Part shown: piece by piece, positions 36,566 through 44,827 of the stretch
Position numbering within the stretch: position 1 is the first letter of the stretch
How the letters are laid out: every line of letters starts with the position of its first letter
NCBI GenBank assembly: GCA_946622415.1
Contig: CAMOPX010000014.1
Location: 1 to 44,975 of the forward strand
Length of the DNA stretch: 44,975 bases
Source: an uncultured bacterium
GTDB taxonomy: Bacteria > Cyanobacteriota > Vampirovibrionia > Gastranaerophilales > Gastranaerophilaceae
Direction: 5' to 3'
Notes under the pieces: generated by a model
The model's input: only the letters and a program-made list of their open reading frames with translations
The model's database searches: none
Told to the model about the DNA's origin: nothing
Translations under genes and position numbers: made by a program

Positions 36566-37303
36566 TTATTTTGAATTTTTTATAAACTCATGGCTATACC
36601 ATTCAATATCATCGCATAAGCGTGTCAGGGGAATTTTGCATTTATATTTTACTCTCAAGGATGCTGCAATAAAAAAGTCGCACAAATTAGGGTTTTGGGC
36701 AAAAATCGGACTTACAATATATGTTCCTATGATATTATTAAATCTTGCACCTTCGGTTTTATCTTTATTATTGCCGAAGCCTTTTTGCAAAATTAAAAAA
36801 GGGTTTGTATCTTCAAAAAGATGAGTTGTCATAGTGTGATTTTCAAAACCGACTATGGTTTTACTCTTTAAAAAGTTGCAGTTGCCCGATATATTTCCGT
36901 ATCTGAATTTTTTACCCGCAATTGAATTTATATTTAAAAGTTTAATTCCCTCTGTTTGCGGTTTATTGTGAGGTTGAAAATAGTTTCCTATCATTTGATA
37001 TCCGCAATTAACGGCAAGCATTGGAACAAAAGCGAGAGTTGCAATTTTTAATTCCTCTTGATTTCCTTTCAGATATTTAATGCAATAGTTCATTGCTTCC
37101 GTGTTTGAACCGCCCAGATAATAAAAATCAAATTTAGAAGGAGAACCGATTTTATCGTGTGTGCGAATTTCCTGCACATCTACATCAATATCTCTCCATT
37201 TTGCTCTTTTACAAAATACTTCGATATTGGCATTATCACAATAACCTTGCATAATATCAGGATATAAATATGCAACTTTTAATTTAAGAGGATTTTTTGA
37301 CAT
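36566..37303 (-). CDS. gatD: Lipid II isoglutaminyl synthase, glutaminase subunit GatD
   Basis: 245-residue CobB/CobQ-like glutamine amidotransferase. It matches GatD in the N-terminal pattern LKVAYLYPDIMQGYCDNANIEVF. The nucleophile Cys100 lies in AVNCGYQMIG and the partner His156 in VGFENHTMTTH. GatD supplies ammonia to MurT for amidation of the D-glutamate in lipid II, a step needed for cross-linking in many monoderms and also present in Cyanobacteria. MurT is not adjacent. Instead the gene overlaps proS by 25 bp and must be cotranscribed with it. Another CobQ-like amidotransferase role is the alternative, but the length and N-terminus favour GatD. Confidence 0.83.
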   Translation of the reverse strand: MSKNPLKLKVAYLYPDIMQGYCDNANIEVFCKRAKWRDIDVDVQEIRTHDKIGSPSKFDFYYLGGSNTEAMNYCIKYLKGNQEELKIATLAFVPMLAVNCGYQMIGNYFQPHNKPQTEGIKLLNINSIAGKKFRYGNISGNCNFLKSKTIVGFENHTMTTHLFEDTNPFLILQKGFGNNKDKTEGARFNNIIGTYIVSPIFAQNPNLCDFFIAASLRVKYKCKIPLTRLCDDIEWYSHEFIKNSK

Positions 37304-38994
37304 TCTTCAATGGCTTCTTCGGGAGTTAATTTCTTAACTTCTCCTTCTTTCCTTAATTTAAATTCTACAAGCCCTTCACTTATCGTTCTGCCTACGGTAA
37401 TTCTAATCGGGAAACCTATCAAATCCGCATCTTTAAATTTTACACCTGCTCTGTCTGACCTATCGTCTATTACCGTTTCAATGCCCAGTTCGTTTAATTT
37501 ATTATATATTTCGTCGGCTTTTTCAGCTTGCACAGGGTCTTTTGTATCAACAGGAATAACAATAACGTGATACGGTGCAATTTCAATAGGCCAAATGATA
37601 CCGAAATCATCGTGGTATTTTTCTATGGCTGCAGCCATTGTTCTTGAAACACCGATTCCGTAGCAACCCATTATATAAGGTTTTAATTCTCCGTTTTCAT
37701 CGGTATAAACCGCATTCATAGGTTCTGAATATTTTGTTCCGAGTTGGAATATATTTCCGACCTCTATGCCTCTTGTGATTTTAAGCGGTTTTTTGCAAAC
37801 GGGACAAAATTCTCCGACTTTTACAACGGAAATATCATGAAATTCTTTTATATCTTCTTCTAAATTAGCACCAACAATATGTTTATCTCTTTCGTTTGCG
37901 CCTAAAACAAAATTCTTCATTCCTTTGACGGTATTATCAAAAATTACTTTTACCTTTGATTTATCAACGCTTCTATAGGAAATAAAACCTGCTTCTGAAT
38001 TTAAATATTCTTTTATTTCGCTTTCTTCCATAGGTCTTATTTCTATTGCATTTAATGCATTCATCAGTTTTGTTTCTTCAATTTCTTTATCGCCTCTAAT
38101 CATTGCGATAGCGGGTTTTGAATCCGCAATATAGGCAACGGCTTTTAATATGCAATTTTCGTTAATTTTTAAGAATTTTGATAAATCTTCTATTGTCTTT
38201 ACATTTGGCGTATCAACTGTTTTTTCTTCATTATAGCCGTAATCAGCACCGTTTGTTTCTTGAATAGGAAGAATTGAAATTGCATGGTTTGAATTAGCGC
38301 TGTAGTCGCAGCTGTCGCAATAGAATACATCATTTTCTCCGACAGCAGTATCTGTTAATACCATATATTCGTGAGAAACAGCACCGCCTATCGCACCGCT
38401 ATCCGATTGTACAGCTTTAGTTTCAAGTCCGCATCTGTTAAAAATACTAGTGTAGGTTTGTGCCATAACTTTATATTCTCTTTCCAAATCTTCTTGACTT
38501 GTGTGGAAAGAATAGGCATCCTTCATTATAAATTCACGACCTCTTAATAGTCCGAATCTCGGTCTTATTTCATCTCTGAATTTTGTTTGAATTTGGTATA
38601 CATTCAATGGAAGCTGCTTATAAGATTTTGCAACATCAGATACAACGGATGTAACAACTTCTTCATGAGTGGGTGCAAGACACATTTCATTATCGTGTCT
38701 ATCCTTGCATCTTAATAGTTCTTTTCCGTATTTTGCCCATCTGCCTGATTTTTGCCAAACCTCAGCCGGTTGCACAAAAGGCATTAATAATTCTTGTGCG
38801 CCGGATGCATTCATTTCTTCTCTTATGATATTTGATATTTTATTTAAAACCCTTTGAGCTAAAGGCATATATGTATAAATTCCGTTTGCGAGTTTTTTAA
38901 TAAAACCTGCTCTGACAAGTAATTTATGAGAAATAGCCTCTGCATCATTCGGAAATTCTCTTAATGTTTGTACAAACAGTTTTGACATTTTCAT
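37279..38994 (-). CDS. proS: Proline--tRNA ligase
   Basis: 571-residue bacterial-type prolyl-tRNA synthetase (class II). It has the N-terminal catalytic part (QTLREFPNDAEAISHKLLVRAGFIKKLANGIYTYMPL; motif 2 around FRDEIRPRFGLLRGREFIMKDAYSF), the editing INS domain (~225-390) and motif 3 (YGIGVSRTMAAAIEK). The C-terminal anticodon-binding domain (~470-571) follows. The ATG at 38994 is used; GGGGG lies 12 bp upstream, and a second ATG two codons later is equally possible. The 3' end overlaps gatD. Confidence 0.96.
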   Translation of the reverse strand: MKMSKLFVQTLREFPNDAEAISHKLLVRAGFIKKLANGIYTYMPLAQRVLNKISNIIREEMNASGAQELLMPFVQPAEVWQKSGRWAKYGKELLRCKDRHDNEMCLAPTHEEVVTSVVSDVAKSYKQLPLNVYQIQTKFRDEIRPRFGLLRGREFIMKDAYSFHTSQEDLEREYKVMAQTYTSIFNRCGLETKAVQSDSGAIGGAVSHEYMVLTDTAVGENDVFYCDSCDYSANSNHAISILPIQETNGADYGYNEEKTVDTPNVKTIEDLSKFLKINENCILKAVAYIADSKPAIAMIRGDKEIEETKLMNALNAIEIRPMEESEIKEYLNSEAGFISYRSVDKSKVKVIFDNTVKGMKNFVLGANERDKHIVGANLEEDIKEFHDISVVKVGEFCPVCKKPLKITRGIEVGNIFQLGTKYSEPMNAVYTDENGELKPYIMGCYGIGVSRTMAAAIEKYHDDFGIIWPIEIAPYHVIVIPVDTKDPVQAEKADEIYNKLNELGIETVIDDRSDRAGVKFKDADLIGFPIRITVGRTISEGLVEFKLRKEGEVKKLTPEEAIEECQKILLN

Positions 38995-39083: not shown

Positions 39084-40484
39084 ATGGATATCTTTAATTC
39101 GTTAAGTGTGATTGTTGTATTTTTACCGTTGATTTTCGCAATAAGTATGCTTATTGCGAGAGTGAAGTTTGTTCTGATAAATAAAACAATTCTGAATTAC
39201 GGTTTATATCTTATAAATATTATTAATTTAATTTTGGTTTCTATATCAGCTTATTTTATTTATGTCCAAAATAAAACCTTTAATTTTGGTTTAAATTGTT
39301 TTGATTTTTCTTTTAATTTGCTTGCGGATAAAAACAACATATTATTTTTAATTACGGCTTCAATTTTTTATTTTTTGGTTAATGTCTTTGTAATAAGATT
39401 TTTTATTACAAAGAAGCAGTTTTTGTTTACAAAACAAAGATACTATATTCTATTTTCGTTATTAATTTCTAATACATATTTGTTTTTATGTTCGCCAAAT
39501 ATCCTGCAGTGTCTTGTATTCTGGTTTGTACAATCATTGATTATACTTATTTTTTCTTATTTTGATATATTTAAAATAGGCACAAAAGTTAATATAACAA
39601 GATTTTTAAGGATAAATCTGCTGGGTGATTTTGCTTTTTTGGTTGCGTATGTCTTGTTTTTTAAATATGCGATATTGCAAGAGCCATTAATTGAAAGCAC
39701 AAGTATTGCCATAAAAAATATTAATCTCTTTTTTAGTTATTTAATAGGAATAAGTTCAATCGGTGAATATAAATTTGCACTTATAATGCTTCTTATTGCT
39801 GTATTTTCAAGGTTGATTATATTTCCTTTCAGTTGTTACTACAGCTTTTTTGCAAATTCTTCTTCGGTTTTGTATTTGCCGATTATGATTTGTGCAAATA
39901 ATATTTTAGGTGCATATTTATATTTAAATATTTGTCCGATGTTTGATTATTTCCCGGACGCCAAGATGTTTATTTATACCGTATCGCTAATTACAATTAT
40001 TACGTCATTGATATTTATAACTTACGAAAAAAACATAAAAATTATTTACGGTTATTTACTGTCAATTATAAATGCCGTATTTATTTCTATAGTGTTATTT
40101 AATAAATATTCTGTATTTATTTATTTTGGATTACTGTTTGTTTTGCTTTTAATATTGATGAATCTCTTTTCTAAAGATAAAAACAATATTAAAAGAAAAG
40201 TTTTAAATAAGTTTACAGGATTCTATCTTGAAAAGTTTAATATATTTGTATTTGAAAAAGTGCCATATAAGCTTGCAAATATTTTAACCCTTGTAAATAA
40301 GTATTTCTTTAAGATACTTTTTGGTTTGGGAAATAAAATAACAGATACCGCAAATACCTTCTTTGTGATAAAATCGTCAAAAGCTTCTAAAATTACGATT
40401 ATAAGGACAGTTTTTCTCGTTTTTACTTTATTTGTTGTTTTTATAATACTTGCAATTCTTTTTAGGAGGATAGATTTTGGATAA
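39084..40484 (+). CDS. NuoL/MrpA-like membrane protein, highly diverged
   Basis: 466-residue polytopic membrane protein. Its first ~270 residues follow NuoL of respiratory complex I: LADKNNILFLITASIFYFLVN (the 'DxLSxxM' helix), a helix ending in WFVQSLIILIFSYF (NuoL WExxGxxSYLLIGF), then INLLGDFAFLVAY (NuoL xRVGDxxF). LIAVFSRLIIFPF corresponds to NuoL GAxGKSAQxPL. The helix-5 Glu is replaced (W147-F148) and the central Lys becomes Arg243. The chain is ~150 residues shorter than NuoL. A NuoL-like C-terminal amphipathic stretch (FYLEKFNIFVFEKVPYKLANIL) is kept. Start at 39084 is chosen from hydrophobic start context; ATG 39054 and TTG 39048 are possible. It overlaps the next gene by 8 bp. Confidence 0.7.
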   Translation: MDIFNSLSVIVVFLPLIFAISMLIARVKFVLINKTILNYGLYLINIINLILVSISAYFIYVQNKTFNFGLNCFDFSFNLLADKNNILFLITASIFYFLVNVFVIRFFITKKQFLFTKQRYYILFSLLISNTYLFLCSPNILQCLVFWFVQSLIILIFSYFDIFKIGTKVNITRFLRINLLGDFAFLVAYVLFFKYAILQEPLIESTSIAIKNINLFFSYLIGISSIGEYKFALIMLLIAVFSRLIIFPFSCYYSFFANSSSVLYLPIMICANNILGAYLYLNICPMFDYFPDAKMFIYTVSLITIITSLIFITYEKNIKIIYGYLLSIINAVFISIVLFNKYSVFIYFGLLFVLLLILMNLFSKDKNNIKRKVLNKFTGFYLEKFNIFVFEKVPYKLANILTLVNKYFFKILFGLGNKITDTANTFFVIKSSKASKITIIRTVFLVFTLFVVFIILAILFRRIDFG

Positions 40485-41958
40485 ATTATCGTATAATATG
40501 CTTCTTCAAATATTATATTTTATCTTTCCTTTTATTTTTGTAATAATTTTTGGAGCTTTTCAGTTCGTAAAAAATCCTGTCAAAATAAGACGCTTTACAA
40601 AAGGGTTTTTTATCTTGGAAACAATTTTGTTGTTTTTAATTTTTGCTTTTAACGATGTTTTGAATGTCAATATTTTTAATTGTTCTTTCAACTGTGATAA
40701 AAAATTAATGCTTCTTTTATTTGTTTCTAATTTTCTCTTTTTGCTTGTTATATTTTTGTCTAAATCGTTAATTAAAATTGCAAAGAAACTTTTTTATCTT
40801 GCTTGTGTTTTATTATACGGTCTTTTAAATATTTTTATAATTTCCGATAATGTTATTTTTTCTTTTGTTTGCTTGTTTTGGCTTATTCTTTCGATGTTTT
40901 TTATATCGGATATAATGAACAAAAAAACGTTAACATTAAAAGAATCAAAAAAACTGCTCATTTTTGATATCGGTGCATATTTTGTTGCAGGATTTTTTAT
41001 TTGTTTTGATTTTTTAAGATATTTTATTTTAAATGAAACCCCGATTAATTTTTCTTATATGTCTGAATATTTTGCGCACATTGATGATAGAGCAATCTTG
41101 ATATCTTTTATCGGGTTTTTGATATTAATGTTTAAGTGTTTTGGTTTCTTAAATTTATTTGAAAGATATAGAGAATTATTTTCCAAAAAAACATTTTTTA
41201 ACGCTTCCGTTGTTACCATAACGGAAAGTATTATCGGTATTTGTTTGTTGTATAGAATATATAATGCGTTTGATTATTTATTTTATCAATACCAAGCCGT
41301 AATTTCTTCGATATTACTTTTGGTTATTGGCTATAACGCTATTGCCTCATTTAAAGTTGATAACTTATTAAAGACCGTTAATTCTGTTTATGTTGTGAGT
41401 CTTTCTTTGGGATTATACTCTGTGTTTTCATACAGTAAAACGGATAGTATAATTTCTTTTTATTACTTTCTTTCATTGATTTGTTCGTATGCATTTATTT
41501 TGTTTGTTTTTGCAATTTTAGAAAATTTGTTTAATACAAAAGATATTGACGATTTTAAAAGAATAAATGATAAAACCAAAAAAATGCAAATTTTTACATT
41601 GTTTGGTTTGCTTAATTTTGCAAAAGCTCCTGTATGTTCGCATTTTGTTTATTTTTTAATGCTTTGTTTAACTGTAAATTCGATTGAATACGATTGTGCC
41701 TTCTTAAAGGCAATGCCATATTTAATAATTTTGTGTATATTTTTGTGCTGCATTTCAATATTCAATATAATAGCAAAAATTCTTATAGAGCCTTTGGAAA
41801 TTGATAAAAATAAACATCAACTTTTTAAACATCAAAATGCGGTTTTAATTGCGCTTATTTTATTTATGGTTATTTTACTTTTTGGAATTGAAGGCAATAT
41901 CAGTAATACGGATTTTAATTTATTATCGGGAAATATCGGCTATGTACTATTTAATTAA
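40477..41958 (+). CDS. NuoM-like membrane protein, highly diverged
   Basis: 493-residue polytopic protein with about 13 hydrophobic segments, near the length of NuoM (~500). FLILMFKCFGFLNLFERYRE (~214-233) corresponds to NuoM AFAVKMPxxPLHxWLPDAH and keeps Lys220. NAIASFKVDNLLKTVNSVYVVSLSLGL corresponds to NuoM AxxQTDIKRLIAYSSVSHMGF. The helix-5 Trp-Glu is W135-L136, so the Glu is missing. LLNFAKAPVCSHFVYF corresponds to the NuoM LGxPGTxxFVGEF loop, without its Gly and Glu. The TTG start has a perfect AGGAGG 7 bp upstream, which decides the start. It overlaps both neighbours. Confidence 0.7.
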   Translation: MDKLSYNMLLQILYFIFPFIFVIIFGAFQFVKNPVKIRRFTKGFFILETILLFLIFAFNDVLNVNIFNCSFNCDKKLMLLLFVSNFLFLLVIFLSKSLIKIAKKLFYLACVLLYGLLNIFIISDNVIFSFVCLFWLILSMFFISDIMNKKTLTLKESKKLLIFDIGAYFVAGFFICFDFLRYFILNETPINFSYMSEYFAHIDDRAILISFIGFLILMFKCFGFLNLFERYRELFSKKTFFNASVVTITESIIGICLLYRIYNAFDYLFYQYQAVISSILLLVIGYNAIASFKVDNLLKTVNSVYVVSLSLGLYSVFSYSKTDSIISFYYFLSLICSYAFILFVFAILENLFNTKDIDDFKRINDKTKKMQIFTLFGLLNFAKAPVCSHFVYFLMLCLTVNSIEYDCAFLKAMPYLIILCIFLCCISIFNIIAKILIEPLEIDKNKHQLFKHQNAVLIALILFMVILLFGIEGNISNTDFNLLSGNIGYVLFN

Positions 41959-43339
41959 TATTATTAAAAATTCTGACATATTGGAAACTGTTTCATTTTT
42001 TTCATCTGAAATAGTATTGTTTTTTGCGTTTTTATTTAATCTGATTTTGTTTTTAATATTTAAAAGAAATCCAAAGGCAAAACGTCTTTCTGATTTTGTA
42101 ACTTCACTTGTTTTTGTTTTTAATTTTATTTTGTGCTTCATAATGTACTTTAATAATTTTAATAACGAACAATTCACGGTTACTTTTTTGGATGATTTTT
42201 TGTATCAAAATGTAGACGTTTTATTCACAAAAACAGTTATTAATCTGTTTATGCTTTTGTTTTTATTTTCCACATACAGGCTTGTCAGATCAATTTCTTA
42301 TAAGGCTACATTAATTAATGCATATTTATGTTTGATTGCCCTTTCTTCTTCAATAATAATTCAGGTAAATAATATTCTGCTTACATTTTTCTTCCTTGAT
42401 TTGAATATATTTTTAATCTTTAAATACGGTTCTTCATTCAAATTTAATACTTTTAAATACTTCCAATCGGATTATCTGTTTGCAAATATTGTATCAACAA
42501 TACTTTTTTATTCTGTTGCGTTTGCTTTAATGTTTAACGATTCTGATAATCAAATTACGATTTTAAATTTCTGTTTGCTTATGGCATACATGCTAAAAAT
42601 CGGTATATTCCCGAGTGTTAATTTCTTCAATTTAAAAAGTCACAAAAATAACCTGCCCTATTCTATTCTTTTATATTCACTTGTTTTGTATACCGGAATT
42701 GCGGGATTTGTTAAAATATTTAATTCATCCGTATTATCGGGTGATATATTTTTGGCGGGTGTTGTATGTTTTTTGGTTTTATGTGCTTTCAATGTGCTTT
42801 TGTATGCACGAAAAACAAAAAATTTGCTTAAATTTTTATCTTGCAGCTGCCAATACTTTGCAATATTCGTAATATTAGAATTTCTTGTATCTTTGGATGA
42901 AGAATCGGCAATCAGATTAGCTTCTTTATATCTCTTTGCATCACTTGCCGTTTATACATTGCTTTGTATATTTAAAATAAATTCAAGAAGTACAAAAATG
43001 TCATTAAATAATTTTAGAGCAATATTTTTGAAAAACAGAACTTATGCCTTTTTATTTTCTCTTTCTTTGCTTTTATTGTTTTCCGTAGTGCCGAGCGGAG
43101 TATTTTTGAATTTTATTAACGGTATGAAAAATATATATTCTTGTGACAGATTTGGGTACATTCTTTTTGTTATATTTGCCTTTGTTTCTGTACTTATGAT
43201 ACTAAAAGTTTTTGATATTATTTTAAATTGTTATAATTTTGAAAAAAATGCAGTTGTTGATACTTTTACAAAAAAGACAACATTGAATTATGTTGCCTTT
43301 TGGATATCAGTAATACTTTTATTTATTTTGATATTATAA
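41942..43339 (+). CDS. NuoN-like membrane protein, highly diverged
   Basis: 465-residue polytopic protein. It is the clearest of the trio: FFFLDLNIFLIF (~150-160; Asp153 where NuoN has Glu) is followed by FKYFQSDYLFANIVSTILFY, the NuoN 'xKYFxxGAxxSAxxLYG' segment. YMLKIGIFPSVNFF keeps Lys219 (NuoN FKxxxxPFHxW). NLLKFLSCSCQYFAIFVIL corresponds to NuoN NIKRLLGYSSIAHxGYLLV. A final LFSVVPSGVFLNFINGM corresponds to xxAGIPPxxGFxxKF. Start at 41942 is chosen because it matches the NuoN N-terminus; it overlaps the M-like gene by 17 bp. An upstream in-frame ATG (41849) would overlap by 110 bp. The stop overlaps the convergent small gene by 6 bp. Confidence 0.72.
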   Translation: MYYLINIIKNSDILETVSFFSSEIVLFFAFLFNLILFLIFKRNPKAKRLSDFVTSLVFVFNFILCFIMYFNNFNNEQFTVTFLDDFLYQNVDVLFTKTVINLFMLLFLFSTYRLVRSISYKATLINAYLCLIALSSSIIIQVNNILLTFFFLDLNIFLIFKYGSSFKFNTFKYFQSDYLFANIVSTILFYSVAFALMFNDSDNQITILNFCLLMAYMLKIGIFPSVNFFNLKSHKNNLPYSILLYSLVLYTGIAGFVKIFNSSVLSGDIFLAGVVCFLVLCAFNVLLYARKTKNLLKFLSCSCQYFAIFVILEFLVSLDEESAIRLASLYLFASLAVYTLLCIFKINSRSTKMSLNNFRAIFLKNRTYAFLFSLSLLLLFSVVPSGVFLNFINGMKNIYSCDRFGYILFVIFAFVSVLMILKVFDIILNCYNFEKNAVVDTFTKKTTLNYVAFWISVILLFILIL

Positions 43340-43705
43340 GTTTTCGTTATTGTATTCGGTATTGTATTTTTTTGCATAGAATGGAGTGTCGCTGTTCCAA
43401 GTATTTGTGAATTGAATTTGATGTTGACCGAATTGTCCGTCATCTTGCATCGGATCAAGATAATTTTTTATTGATGTGTACGAACGACCGAAGGCATTTT
43501 TACCTTTTCTTCTTGAATAATAGCTGCCGCTTTTTACGTTTTTACCTTGATTGAATCTTGCGGTAGTGTCTACGGCTTGAATTGTGCTTTCGCTGTAGCC
43601 TTGTCCTCTTAGGGTATCAATATGCGGTGTTTCATCTTCAAAATAATACGCAAACGTAACTCCGCTAAATGCAAGAATACATAAACTAATTGCTAATTTT
43701 TTCAT
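43334..43705 (-). CDS. Small secreted protein of unknown function
   Basis: 123-residue protein with a clear signal peptide (MKKLAISLCILAFSGVTFA, cleavage near residue 19). The mature part is hydrophilic, rich in Tyr, Asn, Ser, Gln and Arg and has no cysteine. A short segment HIDTLRGQGYSESTIQAVDTTARFNQGK looks helical and could be a small binding motif. GAGGA lies 8 bp before the ATG. It is not recognised as a known family. Its 3' end overlaps the NuoN-like gene by 6 bp, tail to tail. Confidence 0.72.
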   Translation of the reverse strand: MKKLAISLCILAFSGVTFAYYFEDETPHIDTLRGQGYSESTIQAVDTTARFNQGKNVKSGSYYSRRKGKNAFGRSYTSIKNYLDPMQDDGQFGQHQIQFTNTWNSDTPFYAKKYNTEYNNENL

Positions 43706-43774: not shown

Positions 43775-44827
43775 TTACAAAATTTTTAAATCATCTTTTA
43801 TAAGTATTTCCAATTCATCAAGCAGACTCTCTTGCGGAACCTTTTTTATCATTTTTCCTTTTTTAAATATATATCCTTCGCCTATTGCACCCGCTATTCC
43901 ATAGTCTGCTCCTGCAGCTTCTTTTGGGCCGTTAACGGGACAGCCCATTGTTGCAATTGTAATATTACAATCGAGATTTGAAAATTTTTCTTCCACCCGT
44001 TTTGCTAAGCCTATTAAATCAATTTGTGTTCTTCCGCATGTCGGGCATGATATGAAATTCACTCCTTCTTTTCTTAAATTCAGTGTTTTTAATATCTGTT
44101 TTGCAAGCTTAACTTCTTCAATCGGATTTTCTGTCAACGACACTCTAATCGTATCGCCGATACCTTCTGCTAATAGAGTTCCTATTCCTATGGCCGATTT
44201 TACAATTCCGCCTCTTAATGTTCCCGCTTCCGTTAAACCTATGTGTAAAGGGTAGGGAATTTCTTCGTATATTTTTCTGTATGCTTTTATCGTTGTCATA
44301 ACGTCGGAGGATTTAAGTGATACTTTTATTAAATTAAAATCTAAATCCTCAAGAATTTTTATATGCCTTTTTGCAGATTCAACCATTTTTTTATCTAAAG
44401 AGAGTTCTTTATTTTCATATAAATCTTTTTCTAATGAGCCTGCATTTACTCCTATTCTGATTGGAACTTTTGCTTCTTTTGCCATTTTGGCAACTTTTTT
44501 TGTATGTTCAAGGTTGCCTATGTTTCCGGGGTTTATTCTTAATGCATTTATTCCGTTTTCAATTGAAGTTAAAGCTAATCTGTAATCAAAATGTATATCT
44601 GCAATAACGGGAATGGGAGAATTTTTTACTATTTCTTTTATTGCGTTTGCTGCAGTTTTGTTGGGAACTGCAACACGTATTATTTGGCAACCTTCTTTTG
44701 TTAGTTCTTCGATTTGTTTTAGGGTTGAATATGAATCTTCGGTTTTTGTATTTGTCATTGATTGTATTGAAACGGGTGCGCCTGCGCCTATTTCAACATC
44801 GCCTATTTTAAATTTTATTTTTTCCAT
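43775..44827 (-). CDS. ispG: 4-hydroxy-3-methylbut-2-enyl diphosphate synthase
   Basis: [4Fe-4S] enzyme of the MEP isoprenoid pathway (MEcPP to HMBPP); 350 residues, the compact bacterial form without the plant/Chlamydia insert. The TIM-barrel half has VSIQSMTNTKT and RINPGNIG (~98-104). The C-terminal half holds the cluster ligands Cys261, Cys264 (SCPTCGRTQ), Cys296 and Glu303 (MGCPVNGPKE). Electrons come from ferredoxin or flavodoxin. AGGA lies 12 bp before the ATG; TAAAAT ends 6 bp before it, so a leaderless start is also possible. A 12-bp palindrome lies upstream. Confidence 0.96.
   Translation of the reverse strand: MEKIKFKIGDVEIGAGAPVSIQSMTNTKTEDSYSTLKQIEELTKEGCQIIRVAVPNKTAANAIKEIVKNSPIPVIADIHFDYRLALTSIENGINALRINPGNIGNLEHTKKVAKMAKEAKVPIRIGVNAGSLEKDLYENKELSLDKKMVESAKRHIKILEDLDFNLIKVSLKSSDVMTTIKAYRKIYEEIPYPLHIGLTEAGTLRGGIVKSAIGIGTLLAEGIGDTIRVSLTENPIEEVKLAKQILKTLNLRKEGVNFISCPTCGRTQIDLIGLAKRVEEKFSNLDCNITIATMGCPVNGPKEAAGADYGIAGAIGEGYIFKKGKMIKKVPQESLLDELEILIKDDLKIL

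Follow-up and report, generated by a model that had tools for sequence, protein, structure and literature searches.

Respiratory complex I (NADH:quinone oxidoreductase) carries in its membrane arm the antiporter-like subunits NuoL, NuoM and NuoN, the counterparts of cyanobacterial NdhF, NdhD and NdhB. Three overlapping genes of an uncultured bacterium of the Gastranaerophilaceae (Cyanobacteriota; Vampirovibrionia) resemble these subunits and are the subject of this report. The genes, termed L, M and N or together the trio, lie on the forward strand of a stretch of 44,975 nucleotides (the window; positions 1 to 44,975 of contig CAMOPX010000014.1, GenBank assembly GCA_946622415.1). The likeness to the complex I arm consists of orthologous subunits in the same order, a slot in the genome that holds a complete operon in a related genus, and a basic residue on transmembrane helix 7 (TM7). 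In contrast to complex I, the trio operon has neither a redox arm nor genes A, H, J and K, its L is ~160 residues shorter, and the TM5 Glu, the TM8 Lys and the TM11 and TM12 charges are mostly lost. In the analysis the window corresponds to contig C14 of genome G000, an assembly of 1.88 Mb in 50 contigs; below, G denotes a genome, C a contig, a numbered L a locus and g a genus, the genus of the window being g1.

Mrp antiporters contain complex-I-like transmembrane subunits that operate without quinone chemistry, together with small subunits of their own. Complex-I-like transmembrane subunits without quinone chemistry are also described for DAB2, in which DabB works with the carbonic-anhydrase-like protein DabA (PMC13144422); no extra gene for DabA, which was not searched for genome-wide, is present in the trio operon, and the trio differs from both DAB2 and Mrp in that it descends from complex I itself. 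Gilliamella and other Orbaceae are gut bacteria that keep a membrane arm, nuoJKLMN, reported to occur without catalytic subunits in all 95 genomes of the study concerned (PMC11325843). Gilliamella differs from the bacteria with the trio in belonging to the Gammaproteobacteria and in keeping J and K (PMC11325843), as do g6, g33 and g20 below. Homologs of NuoL, NuoM and NuoN without D, C, I and B were reported from the Chloroflexi genome RBG-1351, a predicted obligate fermenter, which differs in being a single metagenome genome and in also having NuoEF (PMC3971608). Finally, engineered Nqo12 and Nqo13 modules of Thermus thermophilus are likewise antiporter-like subunits outside complex I, but these are engineered and proton-conducting, with an intact proton path (PMC11496545).

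For the Melainabacteria, an 11-subunit complex I has been published from gut and aquifer members (PMC3787301), and complex I without NuoEFG has also been published (PMC6349859). A study that described largely vertical inheritance of Melainabacteria complex I set aside metagenome-assembled genomes with fewer than 7 annotated genes (PMC8235220). A literature search that covered few subscription papers returned no report of arms consisting only of L, M and N in Gastranaerophilales. As far as our searches show, the graded series of losses described here, its repetition, the selection data, the pattern of residues and the twofold shortening of NuoL are new.

Identity and Origin of the Trio

Singly, L, M and N of the window gave no match to Pfam at E ≤ 10, and their sole NCBIfam match was a colinear one of M to NuoM (E 2.2). 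Profiles were built for each subunit separately from 25 relatives in the genus. Searched against PDB sequences at E ≤ 10, these profiles gave 29 listed matches (11, 12 and 6 for L, M and N), all of them complex I or Mrp chains. The best match of the L profile was NdhF (9.5e-11) and that of the M profile NdhD (1.9e-15), while the N profile placed an NdhD-type chain (7.9e-5) narrowly above NdhB (1.1e-4). When the genus profiles were compared by hhalign with alignments of the subunits of four complete operons, the matches fell on the diagonal (L with NuoL, 2.8e-17; M with NuoM, 1.8e-23; N with NuoN, 3.3e-16); among the cross matches to canonical subunits, M with NuoN scored best (5.7e-9), and the nine reversed controls gave E 0.16 or worse. 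An iterated search of open reading frames (ORFs) starting from M reaches two antiporter-like subunits encoded on contig C9, then N and then L, with all new entries antiporter-like; searches from L or N stay confined to their own subunit. The trio is thus almost certainly NuoL, NuoM and NuoN in that order, derived from complex I. The original prediction, made by eye from the window, had proposed this homology, and profile searches do find the family, one subunit to one. It had also called the trio an orphan, which agrees with the placement of all PF00361, PF00146 and PF01058 matches of G000 on C9 and with the absence of any PF00507 match; therefore no such gene lies near the trio (small Mrp subunits were not part of this search).

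The origin of the trio is indicated by its neighbors. The 25 trio loci each carry L-M-N, a small secreted protein and ispG, with proS adjoining L except in two where the contig ends. In genus g37 (L184), the order is ispG, small protein, NuoN-M-L-(K)-J-I-H-D-C-B-A, proS, where NuoK is an open frame in a gap that was read by eye. Hence the slot between proS and ispG that holds only L-M-N in g1 holds all 11 nuo genes in g37. Complete operons are likewise found next to ispG in L055, L140, L141, L185 and L186; L146, which belongs to a different family of the order, has one as well, with one extra ORF in between. To judge from this shared slot, the trio is the remainder of an inherited complex I, namely the distal membrane arm that was left when the iron-sulfur and quinone module (B, C, D, I) and the proximal subunits A, H, J and K were lost. 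Across the genus, identity to the window is 74-83% for IspG, 79-93% for ProS, 37-51% for the small protein and 27-42% for the trio.

Loss of the Redox Arm across the Family

The family contains a graded series of losses: complete operons, A-H-J-K-L-M-N, J-K-L-M-N, L-M-N, and nothing. Operons with A-H-J-K-L-M-N and without B, C, D and I were read in L148 and L149 (G124 and G043; g17) and, in diverged form, in L139 (G035; g9); NuoA and NuoH were confirmed in L139, and the NuoA of L149 was found in a family-wide NuoA search. J-K-L-M-N operons with a NuoL of 385-387 residues occur in L134 and L142 (g6), L135 (g33) and L136 (g20), and in L137 (g23) K-L-M-N and an ORF at the position of J lie next to ispG. 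The assignment of J rests on BLAST in L134, L135, L139, L148 and L149, on a weak Pfam match in L136, and on position only in L142 and L137. In g36 (L132 and L133), L-M-N is present with a full-length L, the N of L133 being cut by the contig end. An ORF of 160-180 residues lies upstream of this L at the place of J/K (L132:10275-10814 and L133:4210-4698, both on the reverse strand); it has no Pfam match and could be either a new gene or what is left of a worn one. L, M and N are retained in all redox-free operons that were read. The NuoA search was positive in 39 of 146 genomes and 15 of 41 genera of the family, with no match in the seven g1 genomes of that sample, and many genera of the family have no complex I arm of any kind.

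The number of losses was estimated from a tree of M and N that included 14 operons with redox genes (four complete operons and ten more). In this tree, g23 groups with the complete g16 operon (support 100), g1 and g36 together are sister to the complete g37 operon (100), g17 groups with the J-K-L-M-N clade (87), and g9 is unplaced (52). The stem of g1 measures 2.17 substitutions per site. A smaller NuoM tree with four complete operons had grouped all redox-free arms (80), which spoke against independent losses; the larger tree splits this group, and the single-loss view was rejected. The IspG tree agrees in outline, places g37 with g36 at 83 and has a weakly supported backbone. From these trees the redox arm would have been lost at least three times, which is a firm minimum, and possibly as many as about five. 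The arms of g9, g17, g6, g33 and g20 lie away from ispG, as do the complete operons of G042, G050, G051, G055 and G066, so relocation or transfer is possible for those.

Proton-Path Residues

Residue columns were set on the motifs of L055; the helix names and the E. coli positions of the proton-path residues are ones that we assume. The full set of charges (TM5 Glu, TM7 Lys, TM8 Lys and TM12 Lys/Glu) is not found in g1. The TM5 Glu is absent from L and M in 25/25 loci, while its place in N is acidic in 23/25. No locus retains the TM8 Lys of M or N or the TM12 Lys of L or N, and the TM12 column of M contains Glu in 2 and Arg in 2. A basic residue on TM7 is kept throughout in each subunit (L, 19 Arg and 6 Lys; M, 17 Arg and 8 Lys, 2-3 residues off the canonical column; N, 25 Lys), and the Lys of the NIK motif of L is likewise present in all 25. 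The original prediction had seen in the window a TM5 Glu lost from L and M and replaced by Asp in N, a central Arg in L and Lys in M and N, and hence a mixed survival of proton-path residues; all three observations hold, and the genus-wide counts extend them.

Complete operons provide the reference state. Outside g37, the TM5 Glu, TM8 Lys and TM12 Glu of M and the TM8 Lys of N are each present in 13/13 complete operons, and the TM11 and TM12 Lys of L in all 12 of those with a full L. The complete operon of g37 has Met, Asn, Ala and Gln in place of these four M and N residues; it keeps the L residues, with Arg at TM7 of L and M. This 11-gene operon with worn M and N charges occupies the trio's slot (L184:4700-14807; G063), and the g37 complex I is complete yet possibly uncoupled. 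An order of events in which the redox arm was lost first and sealing followed was rejected on this ground: residue erosion in g37 preceded the loss of redox genes, which reverses the order, residues first.

Redox-free operons outside g1 have mostly lost several charges at TM8 and TM12: the TM8 Lys of M remains in 1/10 and that of N in 1/9, the TM12 Glu of M in 0/10 and the TM12 Lys of L in 1/10 (Arg in 2, deleted in 4). The TM5 Glu is present in L of 6/10, M of 8/10 and N of 7/9, and a TM7 Lys or Arg in L of 9/10, M of 10/10 and N of 7/9. For isolated modules of T. thermophilus, the changes K235M, E377Q and K385I are reported to block conduction, and loss of the TM5 Glu to speed it (PMC11496545). 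Expression of a module also hampered growth of E. coli in minimal medium, an observation that the authors treat with caution (PMC11496545). Since the blocking mutations match the lost charges, the redox-free arms look proton-sealed.

An alternative is that the trio is still an ion conduit, either an Mrp-like secondary antiporter or a regulated H+/Na+ leak that runs through the TM7 Lys/Arg. The conserved TM7 residues, the acidic N TM5 position and the invariant NIK Lys favor such a conduit, as do the Mrp chains among the PDB matches of the L and M profiles. The J-K-L-M-N arms presumably resemble Mrp in subunit types, which we count on the same side. Against it stand the complete loss in g1 of the M/N TM8 and L/N TM12 lysines, the missing second half-channel of L and the blocking effect of equivalent single changes in the isolated modules (PMC11496545). 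Genes for the Mrp small subunits MrpB, C, E, F and G are also lacking from the operon at the 25 trio loci (two contigs end before proS; the genomes as a whole were not searched for them). A surviving conduit is accordingly unlikely, and the proposal in the original prediction of a stand-alone ion-translocating complex is weakened by the same losses of middle and terminal charges and of the half-channel.

Independent Shortening of NuoL

In g1, the ~160 residues by which L falls short of the NuoL of complete operons correspond to the TM12-TM15 region, and the C-terminal part of L can still be aligned with the HL helix and the last TM of NuoL (hhalign E 1.2e-6; 0.13 for the reversed control). The L of the J-K-L-M-N clade is missing TM9-TM15, and here too the C-terminal part aligns with HL and the last TM (2.3e-19; control 0.14). 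The two clades stand apart in the M+N tree and the L of g36 and of g17 is full length, so the two cuts are separate. Both lineages have thus lost the second half-channel of NuoL and retained the clamp helix. In complex I, the HL helix lies across M and N. Its retention after the NuoL cuts suggests that the arm is still assembled, and the covariation of the L, M and N distances described below is counted on the same side. In E. coli, NuoL truncated at the C- and N-termini was reported to give little, fragile complex I (PMC3274701).

Selection on the Trio

All 25 trio loci contain three long ORFs, the N of G007 being short at 395 residues. Across nine close pairs, the ratio of nonsynonymous to synonymous substitution rates (dN/dS) is 0.078-0.208 for L, 0.118-0.204 for M and 0.119-0.158 for N. 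The comparison genes give 0.027-0.205 for the small protein, a range that overlaps that of the trio, 0.024-0.091 for IspG and 0.031-0.063 for ProS (five pairs); these ratios are rough, as dS exceeds 1 in many pairs. Median distances relative to IspG are 4.8x for L, 6.2x for M, 5.8x for N and 4.2x for the small protein, and the distances of the three trio subunits covary with one another beyond what IspG accounts for (partial r 0.62-0.75). By its intact ORFs and low dN/dS, the trio is very probably under purifying selection. Pseudogene decay in relatives, which would have undercut the original prediction, is ruled out by the intact ORFs and a dN/dS of 0.08-0.21. One pair of loci, L031:834-5075 and L041:5274-9512, has a dS for L (0.33) close to that of ispG (0.36), with M (0.80) and N (1.22) far above, as if recombination had exchanged M-N in one of the two.

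Within the genus, a single-protein search with M found the trio in 25 of 28 genomes, the exceptions being G006, G009 and G027. The ispG locus was found in 27 genomes, of which 25 keep the trio. In G027, only ~130 bases, without any gene, separate the gene for the small protein from proS, a clean loss of the trio. A six-frame profile search for trio remnants at the ispG loci of G009 and G027 gave a best E of 0.0082, outside the slot and unconvincing. Since the contig of G009 stops 1.4 kb beyond the small protein, absence there rests on genome-wide searches; G006, 77% complete and without ispG, is uninformative.

These losses bear on a second alternative, in which the trio is a slowly decaying relic under weak or past selection. 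The very fast evolution, the clean loss in G027, the absence in G009 and the many armless genera of the family are consistent with a relic, and the authors of the Gilliamella study termed nuoJKLMN possible remnants (PMC11325843). On the other side, 25 species have kept all three long ORFs, with 27-42% identity to those of the window and low dN/dS, which is hard to explain without present selection, and the redox-free operons read all still contain L, M and N together. We consider a relic improbable.

Redox Partners in the Genome

Genome G000 does not have a functional complex I by the genes searched for: NuoB- and NuoH-family proteins occur only in an operon on C9, with J, K, C, D and I outside the genome-wide search. 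This operon (L030:7028-14247) is Hyf-like, of group 4, and encodes two antiporter-like subunits and NuoH-, NuoD- and NuoB-like proteins. Its large subunit lacks the paired metal-binding cysteines that we take to be expected of a [NiFe] hydrogenase large subunit, and the operon probably encodes an Ehr-type complex. The same lack of cysteines in a NiFe-type complex of Melainabacteria was noted by Di Rienzi et al. (PMC3787301). Hydrogenase-like large and small subunits are confined to C9 and are absent from the trio operon.

Three genomes with the trio, G008 (87% complete), G012 (92%) and G015 (99%), have no NuoB- or NuoH-family match, and G027 shows the reverse, a hydrogenase-like complex without the trio. 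This co-occurrence speaks against the hydrogenase-like complex as an obligate partner (G006, with the hydrogenase-like complex and no trio, was excluded from the comparison because it is 77% complete and lacks ispG too) and disfavors the suggestion in the original prediction of a module that partners a distant redox unit. Elsewhere in the family, 12/12 chosen genomes of g6, g9, g17, g23 and g33 gave no NuoB-family match, a redox-free operon was read in five of these twelve (G035, G043, G049 (85% complete), G059 and G168), and the carriers G046, G062, G069, G124 and G201 have one NuoB-family protein each, on another contig. It is therefore very unlikely that another redox complex, such as the Ehr-type one, takes up the trio as an additional membrane arm, even with a NuoB-family protein in 22 of 25 trio genomes and, in G000, within the Hyf-like operon. 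The trio is in all likelihood redox-decoupled.

A Proposed History and Role for the Arm

The explanation that we prefer, which has about an even chance of being correct on the sequence evidence, is that L, M and N form an assembled, proton-tight, redox-free complex that does not pump. Coupling would first have ceased to matter, upon which the proton path would have worn away, as is already partly the case in g37, and the redox arm would then have been lost. The three subunits would remain assembled via the HL helix of L, with neither pumping nor end-to-end proton conduction, and selection would keep the assembled arm, including its half-channels on the cytoplasmic side and their buried TM7 Lys/Arg. 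As to role, our guess is a non-redox, non-pumping one, perhaps structural, perhaps that of a site for binding or sensing.

Several observations weigh against this explanation. The rates of the trio, 4.8-6.2x that of IspG, also suit weak constraint. The small protein is likewise fast and covaries with the trio (partial r 0.32-0.55), hence neither rate nor covariation is specific to the trio. In redox-free arms outside g1, the N TM12 Lys is kept in 9/9 and the M TM12 Glu is mostly replaced by Lys or Arg (8/10), which leaves sealing unproven. Erosion in g37 precedes redox loss, so that loss of gating is not a simple cause of sealing. The arm is also dispensable, as G027 deleted it cleanly. Lastly, AlphaFold2 models from an alignment of only the window and L003 reached predicted local distance difference test scores of 39.8 and 41.7 and were not used.

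From the original prediction, the homology, gene order, orphan state and mixed fate of the proton path have stood; the distant redox partner is disfavored, ion translocation is weakened, and, close to its suggestion of a repurposed channel in a fermentative organism, a repurposed membrane complex in a fermenter fits best. A broader proposal is tentative, possible rather than probable: that uncoupled complex I has given rise to a new kind of selected, redox-free, proton-sealed complex, at least three and perhaps five times in this family and separately in Gilliamella, with the second channel of NuoL excised independently, the clamp helix kept and the TM7 Lys/Arg serving in binding or sensing.

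Layout of the Locus

The features of the locus are collected in Table 1. Both flanks are on the reverse strand, as originally predicted, with proS on one side and the small secreted protein followed by ispG on the other. The longest L ORF would open at TTG 39048; the ATG at 39084 is favored by the genus alignment, in which M1 is invariant and D2 occurs in at least 90% of 25 rows. For N, the lengths of its relatives make ATG 41942 the most likely start, rather than TTG 41849 of the longest ORF. Residues ~110-121 of L in the window, counted from ATG 39084, form a conserved basic loop that contains a short insertion specific to g1 relative to NuoL. The small secreted protein (~120 residues) is kept next to ispG in many genera across the family, even in those in which complex I has left the ispG locus; its Pfam match is weak and below the cut-off. 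A promoter scan gave 25 sites, with 35.6 expected in shuffled sequences.

Table 1. Features of the trio locus in window coordinates.
Feature	Position	Strand	Basis
NuoL-derived subunit (466 residues)	39084..40484	+	ORF from ATG; profile and hhalign matches
NuoM-derived subunit (493 residues)	40477..41958	+	ORF; profile and hhalign matches
NuoN-derived subunit (465 residues)	41942..43339	+	ORF; profile and hhalign matches
L Arg243, TM7 basic residue	39810..39812	+	R/K in 25/25
C-terminal part of L, similar to HL clamp helix and last TM of NuoL	40218..40484	+	hhalign E 1.2e-6
M Lys220, TM7 basic residue	41134..41136	+	R/K in 25/25
N Asp153, place of TM5 Glu	42398..42400	+	D/E in 23/25
N Lys219, TM7 lysine	42596..42598	+	K in 25/25
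proS, syntenic anchor	37279..38994	-	context
Small secreted protein, syntenic anchor	43334..43705	-	context
ispG, syntenic anchor	43775..44827	-	context

Implications

The arms of the Gastranaerophilaceae amount to a natural experiment repeated within one family, in which L, M and N are always kept, the charges needed for conduction erode, and NuoL has been cut twice with its clamp retained. Genus g37, with its complete operon and worn proton path, represents the preceding step. If the arms are proton-tight, the lost residues would be a natural test of what makes such a channel conduct. As a bee symbiont that carries nuoJKLMN, Gilliamella may offer a way to test the question. If the arms are functional, a part of complex I would have a role that is absent from the literature found.

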